Assembly (NCBI RefSeq): GCF_900215375.1
Contig: NZ_OBEF01000001.1
Location: 1 to 64,000 of the forward strand
DNA from: Enterobacter sp. CC120223-11
GTDB lineage: Bacteria; Pseudomonadota; Gammaproteobacteria; Enterobacterales; Enterobacteriaceae
Reading direction: 5' to 3'
Length of the DNA: 64,000 bases
Position numbers and translations under genes: made by a program. A model generated the notes under the pieces. It saw only the letters and a program-made list of their open reading frames with translations, was not told the DNA's origin and ran no database searches. Of the stretch, positions 33,168-54,940 are shown piece after piece; the first letter of the stretch is position 1, and the number at the start of each line of letters is the position of its first letter.

Positions 33168-36100
33168 TTACGCTTTCTCGATGTTAACCAGAAACGCTTT
33201 GTACTCCGGCGTCTGGGAGTTGGCATCGCCAACGTTTGGCGTCAGGGTATTGGCGATATAGCCCTTCTTCGCCACGCCCTCAAAGCCCCAGTGCAGCGGA
33301 ATACCAACGGTTTCCACCTGCTGTCCGTTGACGTTCAGCGTATGCAGACGACGGGTGACCACCGCCACGGCGCGAATAAAGCCGCGCTGACTGCTCACTT
33401 TCACCTTATCGCCGTTGGCAATGCCTTTGCTTTTCGCCAGCCCTTCGCTGATTTCAACGAACTGCTCCGGCTGCGCGATGGCGTTCAGGCGCGCGTGCTT
33501 GGTCCAGGTGTGGAAATGCTCGGTCAGGCGATAAGTGGTGCCGACATACGGGAACTTATCCTTTTTGCCCAAACGCGCCACGTCGTCTTCATAGATGCGC
33601 ACCACCGGGTTCGACACCACTTTCGGGTGCAGCGGGTTGGTGCCAAGCGGCGTTTCCATTGGCTCGTAGTGTTCCGGGAACGGCCCTTCGGCGAGCTTAT
33701 CGAGCGCAAACAGGCGGCCCAGCCCTTCAGGCTGCATGATAAACGGCCCGGTGGCGCTGCCCGGCGCGGCGGTGTTGTAGTCAGGGATATCGTTCCCCGC
33801 CCACTTCTTGCCGTCCCACTGGATAAGCATCCGTTTCGCATCCCACGGTTTGCCGTTGATGTCTGCGGAAGCACGGTTATAGAGCACGCGGCGGTTCAGC
33901 GGCCACGCCCAGGACCAGCCGAGCGTATTGCCGAGTCCGGACGGATCCGCGTTGTCGCGGTTCGCCATCTGGTTGCCTTTTTCGGTCCAGCTTCCGGCGT
34001 AGATCCAGCAGGAAGACGCCGTCGAGCCATCGTCGCGCAGCAGTGCGAAGCTGTTCAGCAGTTCGCCCTTCTTCGCCACCTGCACGCCGTTCGCGTCAAA
34101 GAGATCGTCGAGCGCATAGCCGTTGTTCTCTTTTGCCACTTCGTCAGAGGCCGGGCTGTCCGGCAGCTTATAGTGCCAGTTCATGCTGAGCAGCGGCTCA
34201 ACGCCGTTACCGCCTTCTGCCACATACATCTCGCGCAGGCGATGGTAAATGCCGGCAAGGATTTCACCGTCGTTGATCGCTTCTCCCGGCGGCTCTGCGC
34301 CCTTCCAGTGCCACTGCAGCCAGCGGCCGGAGTTGGCAATTGAGCCGTCTTCTTCCGCAAAGCAGGTGGACGGCAGGCGGAACACTTCGGTCTGGATCGC
34401 CGACGGATCGACGTCGTTCATCTCACCGTGGTTCTGCCAGAAGGTGGAGGTTTCCGTCACCAGCGGATCGATAACCACCATGTATTTCAGCTTGCTGAGG
34501 CTCTGCACAACCTTGTTTTTGTCAGGGAACGACGCCACCGGGTTGAAGCCCTGGCAGAAATAGCCGTTCACTTCGCCCTTATCCATCAGGTGGAAATACT
34601 TGATGACGTCATACGCCTGGTCCCATTTCGGCAGCCAGTCGAAACCCCAGCTGTTCTCCTTCTGCGCCTTGTCGCCATAGAAGGCTTTCATCAGGCTGAC
34701 GAAGAATTTCGGGTAGTTGCCCCAGTAGTTCACCTGATCGGCAAGCGTAGCTTTTGGCGTGTTAGCGGTCAGGTAGGTTTGCAGATCGGTTTGCTTTTCG
34801 GACGGCAGCGTCAGGTAGCCTGGCAGGCTGGTTGAAAGCAGACCGAGGTCGGTAAGGCCCTGAATATTTGAGTGACCACGCAGCGCATTCACCCCGCCGC
34901 CCGCCATACCCATGTTGCCGAGCAGCAGCTGGATCATGGCCATAGTACGGATGTTCTGCGCCCCGACAGTGTGCTGGGTCCAGCCCAGGGCATACAGGAA
35001 GGTGGTGGTACGTTCGGCGGCGCTGGTTGATGCCAGCACTTCGCAGATTTTCAGGAAATCAGCTTTCGGCGTGCCGCAAATGTTCTCCACCACGTCCGGC
35101 GTATAGCGGGAAACGTGCTGCTTCAGCAGGTTCCAGACGCAGCGTGGATCGCTCAGCGTCTCGTCGCGTTTCGCGTAGCCGTTTTCATCGAACTGATAGT
35201 TCCAGGAGGATTTGTCGTACTGCCGTTTCGCTTCGTCGTAGCCACTGAACAGGCCCTCTTCAAAGCTAAAATCTTCGCGCACCAGCAGGCTGGCGTTGGT
35301 GTAGTGCTTCACGTACTCCGCATTGATTTTATTGTTTTCAATCAGGTACAGCAGCACGCCGGACAGGAAGGTTATGTCCGTGCCGGAGCGAATAGGCGCA
35401 TAAATATCGGCCACCGACGCGGTGCGCGTGAAGCGCGGGTCGACGACGATAAGCGTCGCATCGTTGTTGTTTTTGGCTTCCATCGCCCAGCGGAATCCGA
35501 CGGGATGCGCTTCAGCGGCGTTGCCGCCCATCACCATCACCACGTTGGCGTTTTTGATATCCACCCAGTGGTTGGTCATCGCACCGCGACCAAATGTTGG
35601 AGCAAGACTTGCTACCGTTGGTCCGTGTCAGACGCGCGCCTGGTTGTCTACCGCCAGCATCCCGAGGGAGCGGGCAAATTTTTGCGTCAGGATACCGGTT
35701 TCGTTACTGGCGGCCGAGGCGCAAAGCATCCCGGTGGAGAGCCAGCGGTTCACCGTGGTGCCCTGCTCGTTTTTCTCAATAAAATTGGCATCGCGATCGG
35801 CTTTCATCAGCTTCGCAATGCGCTCAAAGGCTTCATTCCAGGAGATACGCTGCCATTTGTCAGAGCCGGGCGCACGGTATTCCGGGTAGCGCAGGCGGTT
35901 TTCGCTGTGGATATAATCCAGCAGGCCCGCGCCCTTCGGGCAAAGCGCCCCACGGCTCACCGGATGATCCGGATCCCCCTCGATGTGATAGATAGACTCG
36001 CGCACGTTTTTCGCGCCGTCCCCCTGGCTGTACATCAACAGCCCACAACCCACGGAACAGTATGTGCAGGTATTACGAACCTCTCTGGCGCGCAGCAGCT

Positions 36101-48722: not shown

Positions 48723-48873
48723 ACGGCCTCCGTGCTTGAGATATAGTGTGTTTATAACGTATTTTTTTCGCCACACAGGCGATTTTGTGCGGTCATTTTT
48801 TCCGTTTGTGCGCGACCCCTGTTTTCCGCACACGGAACCCGCTTAAATGCAGCAAACCGTCAGGAGAATTGCT

Positions 48874-49446
48874 ATGAGCCGTTTTCGCCCCGTGGAACTC
48901 AGACATGCCAGCCGCCTGCTCAATCACGGCCCGACAGTATTAATCACCAGCTACGACGAAAGCATCGATCGCCGAAATATCATGGCGGCGGCGTGGTCCA
49001 TGCCCGTGGAATTCGAGCCGCCGCGCATTGCGATCGTGGTGGATAAAAGCGCCTGGTCGCGCGAGCTTATCGAGCGAAGCGGCAAGTTTGGGATCGTTAT
49101 TCCGGGCGTGGATGCCGCCAACTGGACGTATGCCGTCGGCAGCGTCAGCGGGCGCGATGAAGATAAGTTCAACTGTTACGGTATTCCGGTGGTACGCGGG
49201 CCTGCGCTGGGTCTGCCGGTTGTAGAGGAAAAATGTCTGGCGTGGATGGAGTGCAAGCTACTGCCCGCCACCGCCGCACAGGAAAAATATGACACCCTGT
49301 TTGGCGAAGTGGTGGCAGCCTCAGCCGATGAGCAGGCCTTTATCGAAGGGCGCTGGCAGTTTAACGGCGACCGCCGCAACACCCTGCATCATCTCGGCGC
49401 CGGGACCTTCGTCACCAGCGGCCGAATGATTAAAGCGGCAGAGTGA
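48874..49446 (+). CDS. yddH: flavin reductase-like FMN-binding protein (YddH)
   Basis: A 190-residue split-barrel flavoprotein: SRLLNHGPTVLITSYDES, NIMAAAWSMPVEFEPPRIAIVV, KFGIVIPG and a C-terminal LHHLGAGTFVTSGR. It resembles FMN reductases of two-component systems but its partner is unknown. The place next to nhoA matches E. coli yddH. ATG 48874 follows AGGAG. Confidence 0.88.
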   Translation: MSRFRPVELRHASRLLNHGPTVLITSYDESIDRRNIMAAAWSMPVEFEPPRIAIVVDKSAWSRELIERSGKFGIVIPGVDAANWTYAVGSVSGRDEDKFNCYGIPVVRGPALGLPVVEEKCLAWMECKLLPATAAQEKYDTLFGEVVAASADEQAFIEGRWQFNGDRRNTLHHLGAGTFVTSGRMIKAAE

Positions 49447-50418
49447 TCAGTATTTGCCGGAGAAGTTGGCGCTAATCCGCTGAGCCAGATAGGCTTTGGC
49501 GGTGATCGGCGGATACTTTTTCTCCGGCCCTTCAATCACCACATCCTCGTTGGCCTGACAGAAAAACGCCAGGCTGTAGCGATCGCTGACCGATTCCCCC
49601 GGCAGCGGGCTGCGAACGCGATGGAAGTTGGACGGCAGTTTGTCATCACTCCAGCGCATCAGCATATCGCCGATGTTGCAGGTGATAAGCCCCTCCAGCG
49701 GCTCAATAGAGGTCCAGCTCTGACTCTCCATCTCTTTGCCGGGGCACACCTGTAACCCGCCCTGGCCCGCCTGCTGGAACAGCAGCGTCAGGCAGTCGAA
49801 ATCGGTGTGCGCACCTGCGCGCCACGGGCCGTCAGGCTCACCCGTCAGCGCAAAATAGTGCAGCATGCGCAGCGTGCTCTGGTAGGTTTCTTGCGAAGGA
49901 TCGTGCGCCTGGGTGAAGAAGTCGTCAGGAAAGCCCATTTTCAGCGCAAAGCAGGAGAGCAGCTTCATGCCCACCTCCCAGCACTGACGCTCGAACGTCA
50001 GCACCGCTTCGCGAAAACCGGGGAGCGTGGCGTCATCGGGCCACAAATCGGTCATCCGTGGGCGCGTCACCTGATAGGACTCTTTCTGATCGGGTTTACC
50101 CGTTGAGGGTCGAATTTGCGCGCGGTATTCCCAGCCTGCGTTGCGATTGAGGGGGAACTGCCCTTTTACGGCTTCCGGTAGCGCAAAGAACTGTTCGGCG
50201 CGGGAGAAGGCGGCATTGATATCGTCGAGTGGAATACCGTGCCCGGACACCTGAAAGAAACCAATCTCCACTGAAGCCTGCCACAGCGCATCGGCGATCT
50301 CTTCTTTTCGCGTCTCAAAATCGCTCAGATCGATAATACGAACGTCGCGGGCGGTTTCTTCGCCTCTCGCGCCCATCAGGGCTTCTTTGGAAAGTTCATG
50401 CAGAGCAAAGCTGTTCAT
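49447..50418 (-). CDS. 2-oxoglutarate/Fe(II) dioxygenase (isopenicillin N synthase family)
   Basis: A 323-residue non-heme iron oxygenase. The N-terminal DIOX_N pattern is RIIDLSDFETRKEEIADALWQASVEIGFFQVSGHGI; the iron facial triad is HTDFD (His, Asp) near residue 200 and the later His in SNFHRVRSP near 258, followed by the 2-oxoglutarate Arg in DRYSLAFF. Substrate unknown. It is divergent from an NMT1-type ABC transporter and deaminase, and both leaders share an RNA-like motif, so a purine-like substrate is plausible. ATG 50418 has GAGG seven bases upstream; the frame to 50502 is leader sequence. Confidence 0.87.
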   Translation of the reverse strand: MNSFALHELSKEALMGARGEETARDVRIIDLSDFETRKEEIADALWQASVEIGFFQVSGHGIPLDDINAAFSRAEQFFALPEAVKGQFPLNRNAGWEYRAQIRPSTGKPDQKESYQVTRPRMTDLWPDDATLPGFREAVLTFERQCWEVGMKLLSCFALKMGFPDDFFTQAHDPSQETYQSTLRMLHYFALTGEPDGPWRAGAHTDFDCLTLLFQQAGQGGLQVCPGKEMESQSWTSIEPLEGLITCNIGDMLMRWSDDKLPSNFHRVRSPLPGESVSDRYSLAFFCQANEDVVIEGPEKKYPPITAKAYLAQRISANFSGKY

Positions 50419-50467
50419 AAGTGGACCTCGTTCATTGCAGTCACGGGGGCCTGGGCCGGGTTCCGGG

Positions 50468-50530
50468 CAGGCCATGGCCTTGTCCTGTCGACAAGGGAGC
50501 AATGACCCACCGGAGGCTTTCCGGCTGACA
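50468..50530 (-). promoter_or_regulatory. candidate riboswitch aptamer, dioxygenase leader
   Basis: On the minus strand GGGTCATTGCTC (50497-50508) is followed directly by hairpin CCTTGTC-GACAG-GACAAGG (50478-50496) and CC. Flanking CAGCCGG and CCATGGCCTG can form a bulged outer stem. The 12-base core matches the copy on the plus strand (GGGACATTGCTC) at 11 positions while the hairpin sequence differs, the pattern expected of one RNA fold. A strong hairpin (GGCCTG...CAGGCC, about 50449-50474) overlaps the outer stem and could be the switching partner before ATG 50418. Confidence 0.5.
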
Positions 50531-50801
50531 GCTTCTACTCAGGGAGAAGTGAAGCAAGCGGCGTGCCATCCTCATATCATTCGATAAATCAACAGATTGC
50601 CGTTTGCACTACACACCCGTTGCCCTGAATCAGTGCGAATCAACCCTTTTTGCTTCACCTTTGTGCAACAAATTTCTAACTGAAACGCTTGTTTCAGACG
50701 CCTACGCTTCCACAGACGGCGAAACGACACGCTTTTTGTTCAATCTCCTGCGTCTGGCACGCCCTTTGCTTTATCACCCGCAGAGTATAAGCGGTCAGCG
50801 T

Positions 50802-50930
50802 GACGAGGTTTCACCACGCGGGACATTGCTCTGCAGCTACGGCTGTACCTCGTCAGGGGGCGGTGCTTTGCGCCGTGAGACTCGCTTACCCCTGATGACA
50901 GACCGTGTTCACGTTTCGATTTGGGGGTCT
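50802..50930 (+). promoter_or_regulatory. candidate riboswitch, transporter leader (NMT1/xanthine-like)
   Basis: Outer stem GACGAGGT (50802-50809) with ACCTCGTC (50847-50854), perfect. Inside lie TTTCACCACGC, the core GGGACATTGCTC (50820-50831) and hairpin TGCAGC/GGCTGTA. Next, GTCAGGGG (50852-50859) can pair with CCCCTGATGAC (50889-50899), which shares bases with the outer stem. The CCCC run could instead pair with the GGGGG ribosome site at 50923-50927. This gives a clear on/off layout for the substrate-binding protein gene starting at 50934. Class assignment to the NMT1 (xanthine) riboswitch is from gene context and layout only. Confidence 0.55.
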
Positions 50931-50933
50931 TTT

Positions 50934-51902
50934 ATGTCAATGTCGTCCGTTCGTTTGATTACGCTGAGTGTCCTGCTGGGCGCAACCGCCCTTGCCCACG
51001 CTGAAGATAAGATCGTGCTGCAAACCACCTGGGTGGCGCAGGCCGAACAGGGAGGGTATTACCAGGCCGTTGCGGCTGGGATCTATAAAAAGTACGGGCT
51101 GGATGTCGACGTCCGCGCCGGTGGGCCGCAGCTCAATAACATGACCCTGCTGCTGGCGAACCGCGCCGACGTCATCGTCAGCTACGACCTGCAGGTGCTG
51201 AAAGGCATCGAACAGCACTTCCCGCTGAAGGCGATTGCCGCCCCGTTCCAGTTCGATCCTCAGGGGATCCTCACCCACGCTAACGTCAACTCACTCAACG
51301 ATCTGAAAGGTAAAACCGTGCTGGTGTCGGCGAGCGGCCAGGCCAGCTGGTGGCCGTGGCTGAAAAACCAGTATCACCTCGAGGACAGCCAGGTCCGCCC
51401 TTACACGTTCAACATGCAGCCGTTCCTTGCTGACGGCAACACGGCGCAACAGGCGTACGCCACCTCCGAAGTGCAGCAGGCCAAAGCGGCCCAGCCTGAC
51501 AGCAAATTCTGGCTGTTCGCCGAACACGGTTACCCGGCCTATGGCGGCATTCTGGTCACCCGCAACACCCTGCTTGCCGAAAAACCGGACGTCATGAAGC
51601 GCTTTGTGGAGGCGTCAATGGAGGGCTGGAAAGCCTATCTGGCGGATCCGACGCTTGGCAATCAGCTCATCAAAAAAGAGAACCCGCAGATGACCGATGC
51701 CGTGCTGGCATTCGGCGTGGCACAGATGAAAACACTGCGCCTGATAGACGGTGGCGACGCGGCCAACAAAGGGCTTGGCGTCATGACGGACAAGCGCTGG
51801 CAGGCCACGCGTGACTTTATGGTTAACGCCGGACTGCTGGACAAGGCGACGGACTACAAAGCCGCTTACACCACTCAGTTTTACCCGCAGGCCGCGATGT
51901 AA
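50934..51902 (+). CDS. ABC transporter substrate-binding protein (NMT1/SsuA-like)
   Basis: A 322-residue periplasmic binding protein with signal peptide (LITLSVLLGATALAHA) and the NMT1 pattern: [46 protein letters not shown] and GILVTRNTLL. This family binds pyrimidines, purines, sulfonates and similar small molecules. ATG 50934 has GGGGG upstream; the frame extends to 50604 but that part is untranslated leader. First gene of a four-gene operon with ATPase, permease and an amidohydrolase. Confidence 0.85.
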   Translation: MSMSSVRLITLSVLLGATALAHAEDKIVLQTTWVAQAEQGGYYQAVAAGIYKKYGLDVDVRAGGPQLNNMTLLLANRADVIVSYDLQVLKGIEQHFPLKAIAAPFQFDPQGILTHANVNSLNDLKGKTVLVSASGQASWWPWLKNQYHLEDSQVRPYTFNMQPFLADGNTAQQAYATSEVQQAKAAQPDSKFWLFAEHGYPAYGGILVTRNTLLAEKPDVMKRFVEASMEGWKAYLADPTLGNQLIKKENPQMTDAVLAFGVAQMKTLRLIDGGDAANKGLGVMTDKRWQATRDFMVNAGLLDKATDYKAAYTTQFYPQAAM

Positions 51903-51911
51903 GGAGCCGCT

Positions 51912-52730
51912 ATGAGTCATGTGCTGTCATTTGAACCGCCAGGCGCGATGCCGGACCCCGCTGATTCGCGCTTCCTGATGGCGCGCGGTGTGGAAAAGGT
52001 GTGGCCCAACGGCACCGTCGCGCTGGAGCGTCTGAACCTGAACGTGGGCCGTGGAGAGCTGGTTTCGCTGCTCGGCCCGTCCGGCTGCGGCAAAAGCACG
52101 CTGCTGAAAATGTTCGCCGGGTTGGAGCCACCGAGCGCCGGTATGTTGCGCTGGAACGGGCAGCCTGCGCTGGCCCAATCCTGCAAAATGGCGATGGTGT
52201 TTCAGGAAGCCACGCTGATGCCGTGGGCAACCATTGAGGAGAACGTCCGGCTACCGCTGAGCCTGGCGGGCGTGAGCAAAAACGTCAGTACGCCGCAGGT
52301 GATGCAGGCGCTGTTGGCGGTGGGCCTGGAAAACTTCCTTCACGCAAGGCCGCGTGAGCTCTCCGGCGGAATGCAGATGCGCGCCGCCCTCGCCCGCGCG
52401 CTGGTGATCGAGCCTGATCTGCTGCTGATGGACGAGCCTTTCGGCGCGCTGGATGAATTTACCCGCCATAAGCTCGATGCCGACATTCGTGCCCTGTGGG
52501 CCAGACGTAATCTGACAGTGCTGTTCGTCACGCACAGCATCTACGAAGCGGTCTGGCTTTCATCGCGAGTGATCGTTATGGGCGCACGCCCTGGACGCGT
52601 AATCGCCGACATTCAGATTGACGGCCCGAAAGAGCGCGACGCCAGCTTCCGCACCACGCCGACGTTTATCCGTCAGGTGGCGGAGCTGTCCACTCTGCTC
52701 GAACAGGCCAGCGGAGGCACACATGATTAA
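51912..52730 (+). CDS. ABC transporter ATP-binding protein (SsuB/TauB-like)
   Basis: A 272-residue ATPase: Walker A GPSGCGKSTLL, Q-loop MVFQEATLMPW, signature LSGGMQMRAALARAL, Walker B LLLMDEPFGALDE, H-loop FVTHSIYEA. Energises import with the next permease gene. ATG 51912 follows AAGGAG; the stop overlaps the permease start by eight bases. Confidence 0.92.
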   Translation: MSHVLSFEPPGAMPDPADSRFLMARGVEKVWPNGTVALERLNLNVGRGELVSLLGPSGCGKSTLLKMFAGLEPPSAGMLRWNGQPALAQSCKMAMVFQEATLMPWATIEENVRLPLSLAGVSKNVSTPQVMQALLAVGLENFLHARPRELSGGMQMRAALARALVIEPDLLLMDEPFGALDEFTRHKLDADIRALWARRNLTVLFVTHSIYEAVWLSSRVIVMGARPGRVIADIQIDGPKERDASFRTTPTFIRQVAELSTLLEQASGGTHD

Positions 52731-53517
52731 GCCCCTGATTCAGTATCCGCAGGTGCAGCGCCTGCTCTGGCCGCTAATGGTCGCCATCGCTCTGCTGCTT
52801 TTCTGGGAAATTGGCTTACGCCAGCTTGGCGTGCCGGTCTACCTGGTGCCAAAACCCAGCGATATAGCCCTGACGCTTTACGCCCAGCACACGGCGCTGC
52901 TGGCAAGCCTGCTGACGACCCTGAAGGTGACTCTGCTGGCGTTCGTGCTGGCGGTAACCATCGGCACGCTGATTGCGTTTCTCTGCGTCCAGAGCCGTAT
53001 CGTCGAGTCCTGCCTGATGCCGTGGGCCATCCTGTTTCAGGTGACGCCGGTGGTGGCCATCGCCCCGCTGGTGATCGTCTGGATCCACAACACCACCCTG
53101 GCACTGGTCGTCTGCGCGATGCTGGTCGCGGTATTTCCTGTGCTCACCAACACCACGCTCGGCCTGCGCAGCGTCAGCCCCGGCCTGCTGAATCTGTTTC
53201 ACATCAACCACGCCAGCCGCTGGCAGATTCTGATGCGCCTGCGCGTGCCCAATGCGCTGCCTTACTTCTTCAGCGGGCTGCGTATTTCCTGCGGCCTGGC
53301 GCTGATTGGTGCGGTGGTGGCTGAGTTTGTGGCGGGAACCGGCGGCAGCGGCGCGGGGCTCGCCTGGCAAATCTTACAGGCAGGGTTTCAGCTCAACTTA
53401 CCGCTGATGTTTGCCGCTCTTTTTCTGATTACCTGCACGGGGCTCGCCCTTTGGGCGCTGATGTCCCTTCTCACCCGCTGGTGCCTGCGCGGCTGGCACG
53501 ACAGCGAACTGGCCTGA
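52723..53517 (+). CDS. ABC transporter permease (SsuC/TauC-like)
   Basis: A 264-residue permease with about six membrane segments. The EAA loop that docks the ATPase is HINHASRWQILMRLRVPNALPYFFSGLRIS, and C-terminal segments such as LPLMFAALFLITCTGLALWALM complete the BPD_transp_1 fold. ATG 52723 follows GGAGG and lies within the ATPase gene end. Four bases separate the stop from the next gene's start region. Confidence 0.9.
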   Translation: MIKPLIQYPQVQRLLWPLMVAIALLLFWEIGLRQLGVPVYLVPKPSDIALTLYAQHTALLASLLTTLKVTLLAFVLAVTIGTLIAFLCVQSRIVESCLMPWAILFQVTPVVAIAPLVIVWIHNTTLALVVCAMLVAVFPVLTNTTLGLRSVSPGLLNLFHINHASRWQILMRLRVPNALPYFFSGLRISCGLALIGAVVAEFVAGTGGSGAGLAWQILQAGFQLNLPLMFAALFLITCTGLALWALMSLLTRWCLRGWHDSELA

Positions 53518-53524
53518 GGTATTG

Positions 53525-54940
53525 ATGAACAGACTGATAAAAAACTGCACGGCGATAATGACCGGCCGCCGGGACGAGCCCCGAAGCCCGGCGACGGACA
53601 TTCGTATTGAAAATGGCATCATCACTGAGATGGGCATCCTGGTGGCCCGGCCTGGCGAAGCGGTCACGGATGCGCGCGGATGTGTTGCTTACCCAGGCTG
53701 GGTCAATACGCATCACCACCTGTTTCAGTCGCTGCTGAAAGGAGAACCACAGGGGCTGAACCAGAGCCTCAGCGCCTGGCTGGCTTCCACGCCCTATCGC
53801 TTTCGCGGCGCGTTCGAAGAGGACACCTTTCGCATTGCCGCCCGTATCGGCCTTGTGGAATTGGTCCGTTCGGGCTGCACCACCGTCGCCGATCACCACT
53901 ATCTTTACTGGCCTGATATGCCGTTCGACGGCGCGGCGATTTTATTCGATGAGGCAGAGAAGCTCGGCGTGCGCTTTGTACTCTGTCGTGGCGGTGCCAC
54001 ACAAACGCGCGGGCTCGAACAGGATCTGCCGACGGCGCTGCGCCCCGAAAAATTCGACAGCTGGATGCAGGATGTGGAGCGTCTCACCGGGCAGTATCAC
54101 CAGCCGCAGGCCGACGCTATGCGCCGCGTCGTCATGGCCCCAACAACCACGCTGCACTCCACCACGCCGCAGGAGCTGCGTGACAGCGCACGTCTGGCCC
54201 GCGCACTGGGGATCAGGCTGCATAGCCATCTGTCGGAAACCGTTGACTATCTTGATGCCGCAAGAGCCAAATTTGGCATGACGCCGCTCCAGTTTTGCGC
54301 GGAGCAGGAGTGGATCGGCGAAGACGTGTGGTTTGCCCATTTGGTGAAGCTGCTGCCGGAGGAGATTGCCCTGCTGGGCGCGGCGGGCAGCGGGATTGCG
54401 CACTGCCCGCAGAGCAACGCCCGACTGGGTAGCGGCATCGCCGATCTTGTTTCTCTCGAACAGGCCGGAGTGAAAATTTCGATAGGCGTGGACGGTGCCG
54501 CCTCGAATGAAGCCGCCGATATGCAAAGCGAAACGCACGCCGCCTGGCAACTCCAGCGCGCCCGCAAAGGGATGCTGGCGCAGCCTCACTACGCCGGAGG
54601 CCAGTTTGAAGGCGGCGGTGATGCCGCCACCATTGAGGATGTGATCCGCTGGGGAACGTCCGGCGGCGCGGAGATCCTGGGCTTAGCCACCGGCGAACTG
54701 CGCCCGGGCATGGCGGCAGATATTGCCGTTTATCAGCTGGATGACCCGCGCTATTTCGGCCTGCACGACATGGCTATTGGGCCCGTTGCCTGCGGCGGTC
54801 GCGCCAAACTCAAGGCGATTCTTTGTCAGGGCCGGATGATTGTTGATAACGATGCGATTCCCGGCATGGACTGCGCTGAACTGGGGCAGCAGGCGGCGGA
54901 GGCGGTAAAACGACTTCAGCACCGGGCCGGAGTCCGGTAA
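53525..54940 (+). CDS. amidohydrolase, 8-oxoguanine deaminase-like
   Basis: A 471-residue metal-dependent deaminase. Metal and catalytic residues: NTHHHLFQSL (HxH), HSHLSE near 238, GIAHCPQSNARLGSG near 292 and IGVDGAASNEAADM (Asp) near 325. This set matches 8-oxoguanine and hydroxyatrazine-type deaminases; 8-oxoguanine deaminase gives uric acid. Other pterin or pyrimidine substrates are possible. ATG 53525 follows GAGG. As last gene after an NMT1-type importer, it probably acts on the imported compound. Confidence 0.82.
   Translation: MNRLIKNCTAIMTGRRDEPRSPATDIRIENGIITEMGILVARPGEAVTDARGCVAYPGWVNTHHHLFQSLLKGEPQGLNQSLSAWLASTPYRFRGAFEEDTFRIAARIGLVELVRSGCTTVADHHYLYWPDMPFDGAAILFDEAEKLGVRFVLCRGGATQTRGLEQDLPTALRPEKFDSWMQDVERLTGQYHQPQADAMRRVVMAPTTTLHSTTPQELRDSARLARALGIRLHSHLSETVDYLDAARAKFGMTPLQFCAEQEWIGEDVWFAHLVKLLPEEIALLGAAGSGIAHCPQSNARLGSGIADLVSLEQAGVKISIGVDGAASNEAADMQSETHAAWQLQRARKGMLAQPHYAGGQFEGGGDAATIEDVIRWGTSGGAEILGLATGELRPGMAADIAVYQLDDPRYFGLHDMAIGPVACGGRAKLKAILCQGRMIVDNDAIPGMDCAELGQQAAEAVKRLQHRAGVR

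Follow-up and report, generated by a model that had tools for sequence, protein, structure and literature searches.

The leaders separating a dioxygenase gene from a divergent transporter-amidohydrolase operon in Enterobacter sp. CC120223-11 carry two aptamers of the xanthine-I riboswitch class, one on each strand. Related aptamers keep this structure with covariation, each copy is preceded by a perfect match to the sigma-54 promoter consensus, and the flanking genes are of the types published for the class. Very probably, a xanthine-I riboswitch stands at the 5′ end of each divergent mRNA, begun at a sigma-54 start, and sets translation of both operons. In such a mechanism, transcription from the two divergent sigma-54 promoters would begin a single base ahead of stem P1 on each strand, and binding of xanthine or urate would close the aptamer. 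As the aptamer's 3′ strand can also pair with later parts of the leader, closure would then change the structure covering the ribosome site. The altered cover would control how far the dioxygenase, on the minus strand, and the transporter-amidohydrolase operon, on the plus strand, are translated. The window, that is, the whole stretch of 64,000 nucleotides that was analysed, contains the following genes and aptamers at this locus.

49447 to 50418, minus strand: gene of a 2OG-Fe(II) dioxygenase with a DIOX_N domain, 323 amino acids (PF03171, PF14226)
50492 to 50545, minus strand: xanthine riboswitch aptamer of the dioxygenase gene, U37 type (RF03054)
50778 to 50836, plus strand: xanthine riboswitch aptamer of the transporter-amidohydrolase operon (RF03054)
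50782 to 50787 with 50827 to 50832, plus strand: stem P1 of the plus aptamer
50794 to 50796 with 50822 to 50824, plus strand: stem P2a of the plus aptamer
50798 to 50802 with 50815 to 50819, plus strand: stem P2b of the plus aptamer
50934 to 51902, plus strand: gene of the NMT1/THI5-type binding protein of an ABC transporter (PF09084)
51912 to 52730, plus strand: gene of the ABC transporter ATPase (PF00005)
52720 to 53517, plus strand: gene of the ABC transporter permease (permease models under their cut-offs)
53522 to 54940, plus strand: gene of an amidohydrolase of the PRK12393 group (NF009059, 745.8 bits, cut-off 543)

From sequence and fold, the locus can be firmly assigned as a pair of xanthine-I riboswitches, a known class. 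The whole window was scanned (cmscan) with 4227 Rfam families, and the xanthine riboswitch family RF03054 (NMT1 motif) matched at 50778-50836 on the plus strand (53.4 bits, E = 4.6e-9) and at 50492-50545 on the minus strand (48.2 bits, E = 1.3e-7), for a gathering score of 36. Three matches in the window passed their gathering scores, the third being SECIS_3, a selenocysteine insertion element at 35575-35633 on the minus strand (84.3 bits, gathering 63). Between 50300 and 51100, at E up to 10, only ASpks and NEAT1_1 appeared besides RF03054, both far under gathering. In the whole genome (4,685,699 bases, 39 contigs), these two copies of RF03054 were the only ones.

The initial annotation had proposed an NMT1-class riboswitch pair from two 12-base cores, GGGACATTGCTC at 50820-50831 on the plus strand and GGGTCATTGCTC at 50497-50508 on the minus strand. 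Both cores are found where it placed them, and the Rfam scan of both strands, in which the two copies exceed the gathering score, bears out the name. The motif itself, described as the core followed by a hairpin and then CC, has to be redrawn, as it combines the end of the aptamer with the start of the expression platform. The common element GGG[A/T]CATTGCTC is the 3′ strand of each aptamer (J2, P2a, J1, and P1). The P2b hairpin lies 5′ of this core and the hairpins 3′ of it belong to the platforms; the limits first given to the aptamers were wrong on the 5′ side. As to the plus outer stem GCAGAGUA/UGCUCUGC, held to be a perfect helix of 8 pairs, eight pairs do form in the fold but one is U-G, and the outermost base lies just upstream of the expected transcription start (~50781).

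With the position numbering and pocket contacts of PMC8266621, the pocket bases G10, C11, G35, A39, U40, and A6-U41 are kept in both window copies. By analogy with the published class and from these conserved bases, the ligand would be xanthine or urate. 8-Oxoguanine, also put forward initially, bears a 2-amino group where the pocket reads a 2-oxo group. This ligand is not supported, because of that group, because G10 and U40, through which the 2-oxo group is read (PMC8266621), are kept in both copies, and because the amidohydrolase falls under the cut-off of the 8-oxoguanine deaminase model (375.2 bits, cut-off 532).

The gene content agrees with the class, as the initial annotation had it: a dioxygenase, an NMT1-type transporter, and an amidohydrolase are among its published gene associations (PMC7373994). 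The genome has one molybdenum hydroxylase domain match and encodes the urate hydroxylase HpxO (631.8 bits, cut-off 500), on the same contig, about 80 kb away. A flavin reductase-like gene at 48847-49446 of the plus strand ends one base before the end of the convergent dioxygenase gene.

In a covariance-model search of overlapping genome samples, RF03054 occurred in 17 genomes at family level (295 searched), 12 at order level (394 searched; nine of the 12 over the family's cut-off), 17 at phylum level (398 searched), and 4 at genus level (7 searched). Two divergent copies, about 210-275 nt apart, are present in ten of the family-level genomes; in the phylum-level sample, genome G851 has three copies. 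From 93 relatives gathered via the dioxygenase, 80 named loci were retained. An own covariance model, trained on 40 aptamers including those of the window (the Rfam matches are independent of it), placed an aptamer at most 500 nt upstream of the related dioxygenase gene in 79 of the 80 loci, and a divergent pair within 1000 nt in 56. This arrangement is not new, because an opposed pair in Hydrogenophaga intermedia S1 is already described in the legend of Figure 5 of PMC7373994. Some aptamers precede other genes: a Rieske oxygenase in L042 and cytidine-deaminase-like proteins in L053 and L104. Besides, the record of L066 (CACSKA010000006.1), titled Chryseobacterium sp. 18061, looks wrongly named; in this region it nearly equals the Citrobacter sp. 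18056 locus (L065), and in the genome search it groups in the genus of the window.

The structure is kept with strong covariation among related aptamers, as expected from the initial proposal. The 38 distinct rows of the training alignment have 91.7% of their cells paired and 84 two-sided changes, vs 29.5 in shuffles. The alignment of the named loci (129 distinct rows), which leans toward the covariance model to which it was fitted, has 84.5% of cells paired and 234 two-sided changes vs 99. Sliding the partners lowers pairing to about half or less in both. Of the three P2a pairs, two are often non-standard, 13-38 in 47 of 129 rows and 14-37 in 65 of 129. The brevity of the shared core, its near identity on the two strands, and its nearness to the promoters could suggest a protein-binding DNA site. 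Such a reading is extremely improbable: it is contradicted by the two-sided covariation seen both in P2b and at the outer pair of P1, the core lies on the transcribed strand just after the promoter, and the class is a validated RNA with a crystal structure (Yu and Breaker 2020, PMC7373994; Xu et al. 2021, PMC8266621).

Upstream of the aptamers, the two promoter matches are as follows.

50755 to 50770, plus strand: sigma-54 type -24/-12 promoter TGGCACGCCCTTTGCT, start expected at about 50781 (perfect consensus, conserved position)
50553 to 50568, minus strand: sigma-54 type -24/-12 promoter TGGCACGCCGCTTGCT, start expected at about 50542 (perfect consensus, conserved position)

The consensus used was TGGCACG-N4-TTGCW, with GG and GC ten bases apart. 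Transcription starts can be placed from sigma-54 spacing, and the expected ones fall one base before P1 on each strand. These sites are the only two in the window with at most one mismatch, and both are perfect. Two matches per 64 kb are not unusual (shuffle mean 1.28 at up to one mismatch; 34 of 100 shuffles reach two), and there are nine perfect sites in the genome; judged from the sequence, it is their position rather than their number that is unusual. TGGCA and TTGC are kept at both ends in a nine-locus alignment of the inter-aptamer stretch. Among 188 distinct aptamer upstream regions, 152 score at least 9 of 12, vs 1.4% of letter-shuffled copies, and in 140 the distance from the -12 element to the aptamer model downstream is 8-13 nt. 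Such a score occurred anywhere in the same stretch in 1 of 30 TPP and 0 of 17 guanidine-II controls. Of the 48 misses, 10 are the complete set from Marinomonas, 7 come from enterobacterial transporter genes with a single-copy aptamer, 12 belong to Acinetobacter dioxygenases and have a weaker site (score 8) in the right place, and 19 are others.

Comparison of upstream regions thus strongly suggests that these aptamers are coupled to sigma-54 promoters, a coupling not found in the papers searched. A term search of the main text of PMC7373994 gave no mention of sigma-54 promoters, the passages of a sigma-54 regulon paper (PMC12316311) do not contain xanthine, and literature searches gave no later study of switch direction or sigma-54 control among the matches listed. 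The reporter of PMC7373994 was driven by the thiC promoter. According to passages of a Ralstonia study, growth on xanthine as nitrogen source requires rpoN1. NtrC as the activator would be a guess; NtrC-like sites (TGCAC-N7-GTGCA, up to two mismatches) are not above chance in the window (32 vs a shuffle mean of 44.8). A simple scan of 50380-50960 found no sigma-70 promoter. Between the promoters, no inverted repeat is common to the six regions searched. The window has CTGAAAC-N4-GTTTCAG at 50680-50697, with which TGAAACAACAATTTCAG aligns in two loci of the same genus; this repeat could be an operator.

Downstream of the aptamers, the leaders contain the following parts.

50850 to 50859, plus strand: platform segment A, TCGTCAGGGG, pairing with segment B (sequence, fold, aligned relatives)
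50877 to 50888, plus strand: candidate anti-aptamer segment, putative role (sequence, aligned relatives)
50889 to 50898, plus strand: platform segment B, CCCCTGATGA, putative role (sequence, fold, relatives)
50923 to 50927, plus strand: ribosome site GGGGG of the binding-protein gene (sequence, conserved)
50478 to 50496, minus strand: platform hairpin CCTTGTC...GACAAGG, directly 3′ of the minus aptamer (sequence, fold)
50448 to 50473, minus strand: second platform hairpin GGCCTGCCCGG...CCGGCCCAGGCC of the dioxygenase leader (fold)
50432 to 50438, minus strand: GCAATGA, complementary to TCATTGC of the aptamer 3′ strand (fold)
50426 to 50431, minus strand: ribosome site ACGAGG of the dioxygenase gene (sequence)

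In the plus leader, segment B has two alternative partners: segment A, and the GGGGG ribosome site, with which its CCCC can pair. In the candidate anti-aptamer segment, GAG faces the 3′ strand of P1, with which it pairs in 13 of 13 aligned leaders, and CGCTTA faces the J1 stretch TAAGCG (50788-50793). A single downstream segment had been thought to pair with either the aptamer side or the ribosome site; both pairings exist, but they are split over two neighbours, 50877-50888 and 50889-50898. Pairing of the plus P2b loop GACGAGG with a downstream CCTCGTC was also considered and dropped, being present in the window but not seen in the related transporter leaders compared. In the minus leader, GCAATGA stands immediately before the ribosome site; as a duplex with the aptamer it does not exceed chance (the best duplex of that strand has p 0.66). 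A simple scan of 50380-50960 found no intrinsic terminator; for this reason, control would be translational rather than transcriptional.

The direction of the switch was approached by folding. D is the cost of opening the Shine-Dalgarno site in the unconstrained leader minus the cost with the aptamer forced, so that with D > 0 the aptamer frees the site. Out of 205 aptamer matches, 149 had a dioxygenase or NMT1-type gene and a usable start, and 27 more were added via a protein signature. Removal of near-duplicates (and, at one step, of leaders of at least 300 nt) left 91 and 19 leaders; shuffled controls cover the 87 of the 91 whose linker has at least 15 nt, and every one of the 19. Three of these 19 (L042, L053, L104) are not NMT1-type. 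The 87 non-redundant leaders have a mean D of +1.71 kcal/mol, vs 0.01 with shuffled linkers, and 72 lie above their own shuffle mean. The 19 added, beta-type leaders average 1.56 vs 0.65, with 13 above their own shuffle mean. Over 110 leaders (the 87, 4 unshuffled, and the 19), mean D is 1.73; it exceeds 1 kcal/mol in 59, is below -1 in 4 (L033, L048, L071, L081), and lies between in 47. By genus group, D is positive in 34 of 37 and below -0.5 in none, although some unnamed groups may repeat named genera.

TPP riboswitches are an OFF class. The 23 usable of 30 TPP loci, from the same bacterial family, gave a mean D of -1.78 vs -0.77 in shuffles, with none above 1 and 16 below -1. Guanidine-II riboswitches are an ON class and made a weak control, with a mean D of +0.58 over 17 leaders (4 above 1, none below -1) and 6 testable leaders equal to their shuffles. 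Single leaders can mislead, since K-12 thiM alone, under stricter constraints, gave +0.28. In Marinomonas (L134-L144), 10 of 10 regions have no well-placed sigma-54 site, yet mean D is 5.08 over the five leaders tested; promoter type and switch direction are therefore separable.

The leaders of the window are themselves neutral (D 0.01 and -0.49, equal to shuffles), so its direction has to be drawn from its kin. The plus leader shares A, B, and the ribosome-site parts with its relatives, and the model folds its aptamer and A:B together, constrained or not. The six enterobacterial paired transporter leaders nearest to it are mixed (0.46, -0.49, 2.19, 0.03, 1.51, -1.29). On the dioxygenase side, all 8 enterobacterial leaders have D > 0 (0.85 to 5.01), and the minus leader of the window differs from them in that its aptamer strand pairs, in the fold, with GCAATGA just before the ribosome site. 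The case for ON would thus be stronger on the dioxygenase side than on the transporter side.

The positive sign of D in relatives is explained by two platform designs. In short leaders (e.g., L031, L034, L036), the 3′ strand of P1, GCUCC, is complementary to the ribosome site and is occupied by the 5′ strand of P1 within the aptamer. Long leaders have a segment A whose sequence complements two others, the aptamer's 3′ strand (X) and a copy of X lying downstream (B). In 18 distinct Acinetobacter leaders, the X:A and A:B helices pair in 99.2% of cells, vs at most 49% for slid versions. A:B shows one G-C/A-U double change, common to 7 related rows; counted in changed pairs this does not exceed shuffles (448 of 500 do as well), but counted in changed cells it does (0 of 500). 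X:A cannot covary because X is invariant, and its pairing is kept through U-G. The A-to-B stretch is complementary to the ribosome-site region beyond the shuffle mean in 18 of 19 leaders (exception L100), with -9.34 kcal/mol for the own site vs -7.37 for the site of another clade, the clades being set by eye. The modelled ON order would be bound aptamer, then A:B, then open ribosome site. Over 114 leaders, with the two of the window added and no 300-nt cut, strand X against the rest of the leader reaches -11.9 vs -10.5 in shuffles; two other aptamer strands have no overall excess. No X excess is seen in the 19 beta-type leaders. Among transporter leaders J1 has a weak excess (p 0.04); the strands of the window itself are not outstanding (p 0.66 and 0.21).

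Fold modelling gives moderate support to an ON-type platform in many leaders, a proposal not in the papers searched and at variance with the published assignment. For the window, the relatives tip the balance slightly towards ligand binding turning translation on. Favouring this are the mean D, the opposite sign of the TPP control, the competing X:A and A:B helices of Acinetobacter, and the 8 of 8 enterobacterial dioxygenase leaders; against it stand the neutral leaders of the window, the mixed paired transporter relatives, and a published reporter of another leader that was OFF. An ON switch behind nitrogen-type promoters would make an AND gate. With somewhat less than even probability, the same riboswitches would instead be OFF switches, high xanthine or urate hiding the ribosome site and halting purine import and oxidation. 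In an E. coli lacZ fusion to the leader of H. intermedia S1, expression was low for the wild type and high for a binding-type mutant, in rich and minimal medium (PMC7373994), the window's own leaders do not contradict such a switch, and its paired enterobacterial transporter relatives are mixed. On the other side, related leaders behave oppositely on average (59 vs 4 of 110 beyond 1 kcal/mol) and the TPP leaders behave otherwise (0 of 23 above 1, 16 below -1). The published case is one leader and one mutant, presented in the main text without a ligand series in cells (PMC7373994). That text points out that genes for degradation of oxidised purines are missing from the targets, and does not settle what an OFF switch would be for.

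The two sides of the locus also differ in the aptamer itself. Among the named loci, 71 of 79 aptamers on the dioxygenase side have U at position 37, vs 0 of 58 on the transporter side, where all 58 have A; rows are not independent, and the transporter gene of 24 of the 58 was assigned from its N-terminus and place (2 of 2 checked had the NMT1 domain). The window obeys this rule, with U37 in the minus copy and A37 in the plus copy. By record titles, the dioxygenase side is exclusively U37 in 13 of 16 genus groups, the exceptions being Marinomonas (8 of 9), Comamonas (4 of 6), and Cupriavidus (0 of 5). From the alignments, side-specific U37, not found in the papers searched, appears strong as a pattern. 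U37 faces U14 in P2a as a mismatch, and P2a stacks beside the bases covering the ligand, next to the triple above it (PMC8266621). It is possible but unlikely that the dioxygenase-side copies are, through this mismatch, a variant aptamer of altered affinity or ligand choice. The side bias, without exception in 13 genus groups, and the stacking of P2a would fit such a variant; against it, all the pocket bases listed above are unchanged, and in Acinetobacter U37 also lies in the aptamer strand pairing with segment A and may serve the platform instead. Pocket tuning and platform role are inseparable here because of that position.

The plus aptamer has U7 in J1 (TATAAGCG) where the solved RNA has G7, a feature shared, within the named loci, by 32 of the 34 gamma-type copies on the transporter side. 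In the passages of PMC8266621, G7 was mutated only jointly with A8, the double mutant being reported not to bind. As J1 TAAGCG is complementary to CGCTTA (50883-50888) of the same leader, the U7 change may serve the platform.

Among known systems, the published xanthine-I riboswitches resemble the window in sequence and fold, above gathering on both strands (PMC7373994, PMC8266621), in gene types and opposed pair (PMC7373994), and in lack of an intrinsic terminator. They differ in that the published switch is OFF (PMC7373994) whereas relatives of the window leaders look ON in the model, and the crystallised RNA has A37 and G7 (PMC8266621), in place of U37 in the minus copy and U7 in the plus copy. 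Xanthine-II, a guanine riboswitch variant, shares the ligand xanthine and has an architecture described as fitting ON switches, but adopts another fold with a three-stem junction (PMC9295807). The hpx system of Klebsiella (Riva et al. 2008, cited in PMC7373994) likewise oxidises purines for nitrogen, and HpxO is encoded in the genome of the window; its gene is, however, remote from the locus, and the dioxygenase of the window is of the 2OG-Fe(II)/DIOX_N type.

The class, its ligands, and the opposed pair were known already (PMC7373994); the sigma-54 promoters, the side-specific U37, and the ON-leaning platforms go beyond the papers searched. The two forms of position 37 offer a natural aptamer pair for measuring the effect of P2a on affinity or switching. 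With a probability somewhat short of even, the xanthine-I class would be mainly an ON class on sigma-54 transcripts, with the published OFF case an exception or a peculiarity of the construct and with the two sides tuned via position 37. Nitrogen shortage would then make the mRNA, and xanthine or urate would license its translation. If ON switching on sigma-54 transcripts is true, the functional label of a riboswitch class would be corrected and the class would represent substrate induction of a nitrogen-scavenging pathway.
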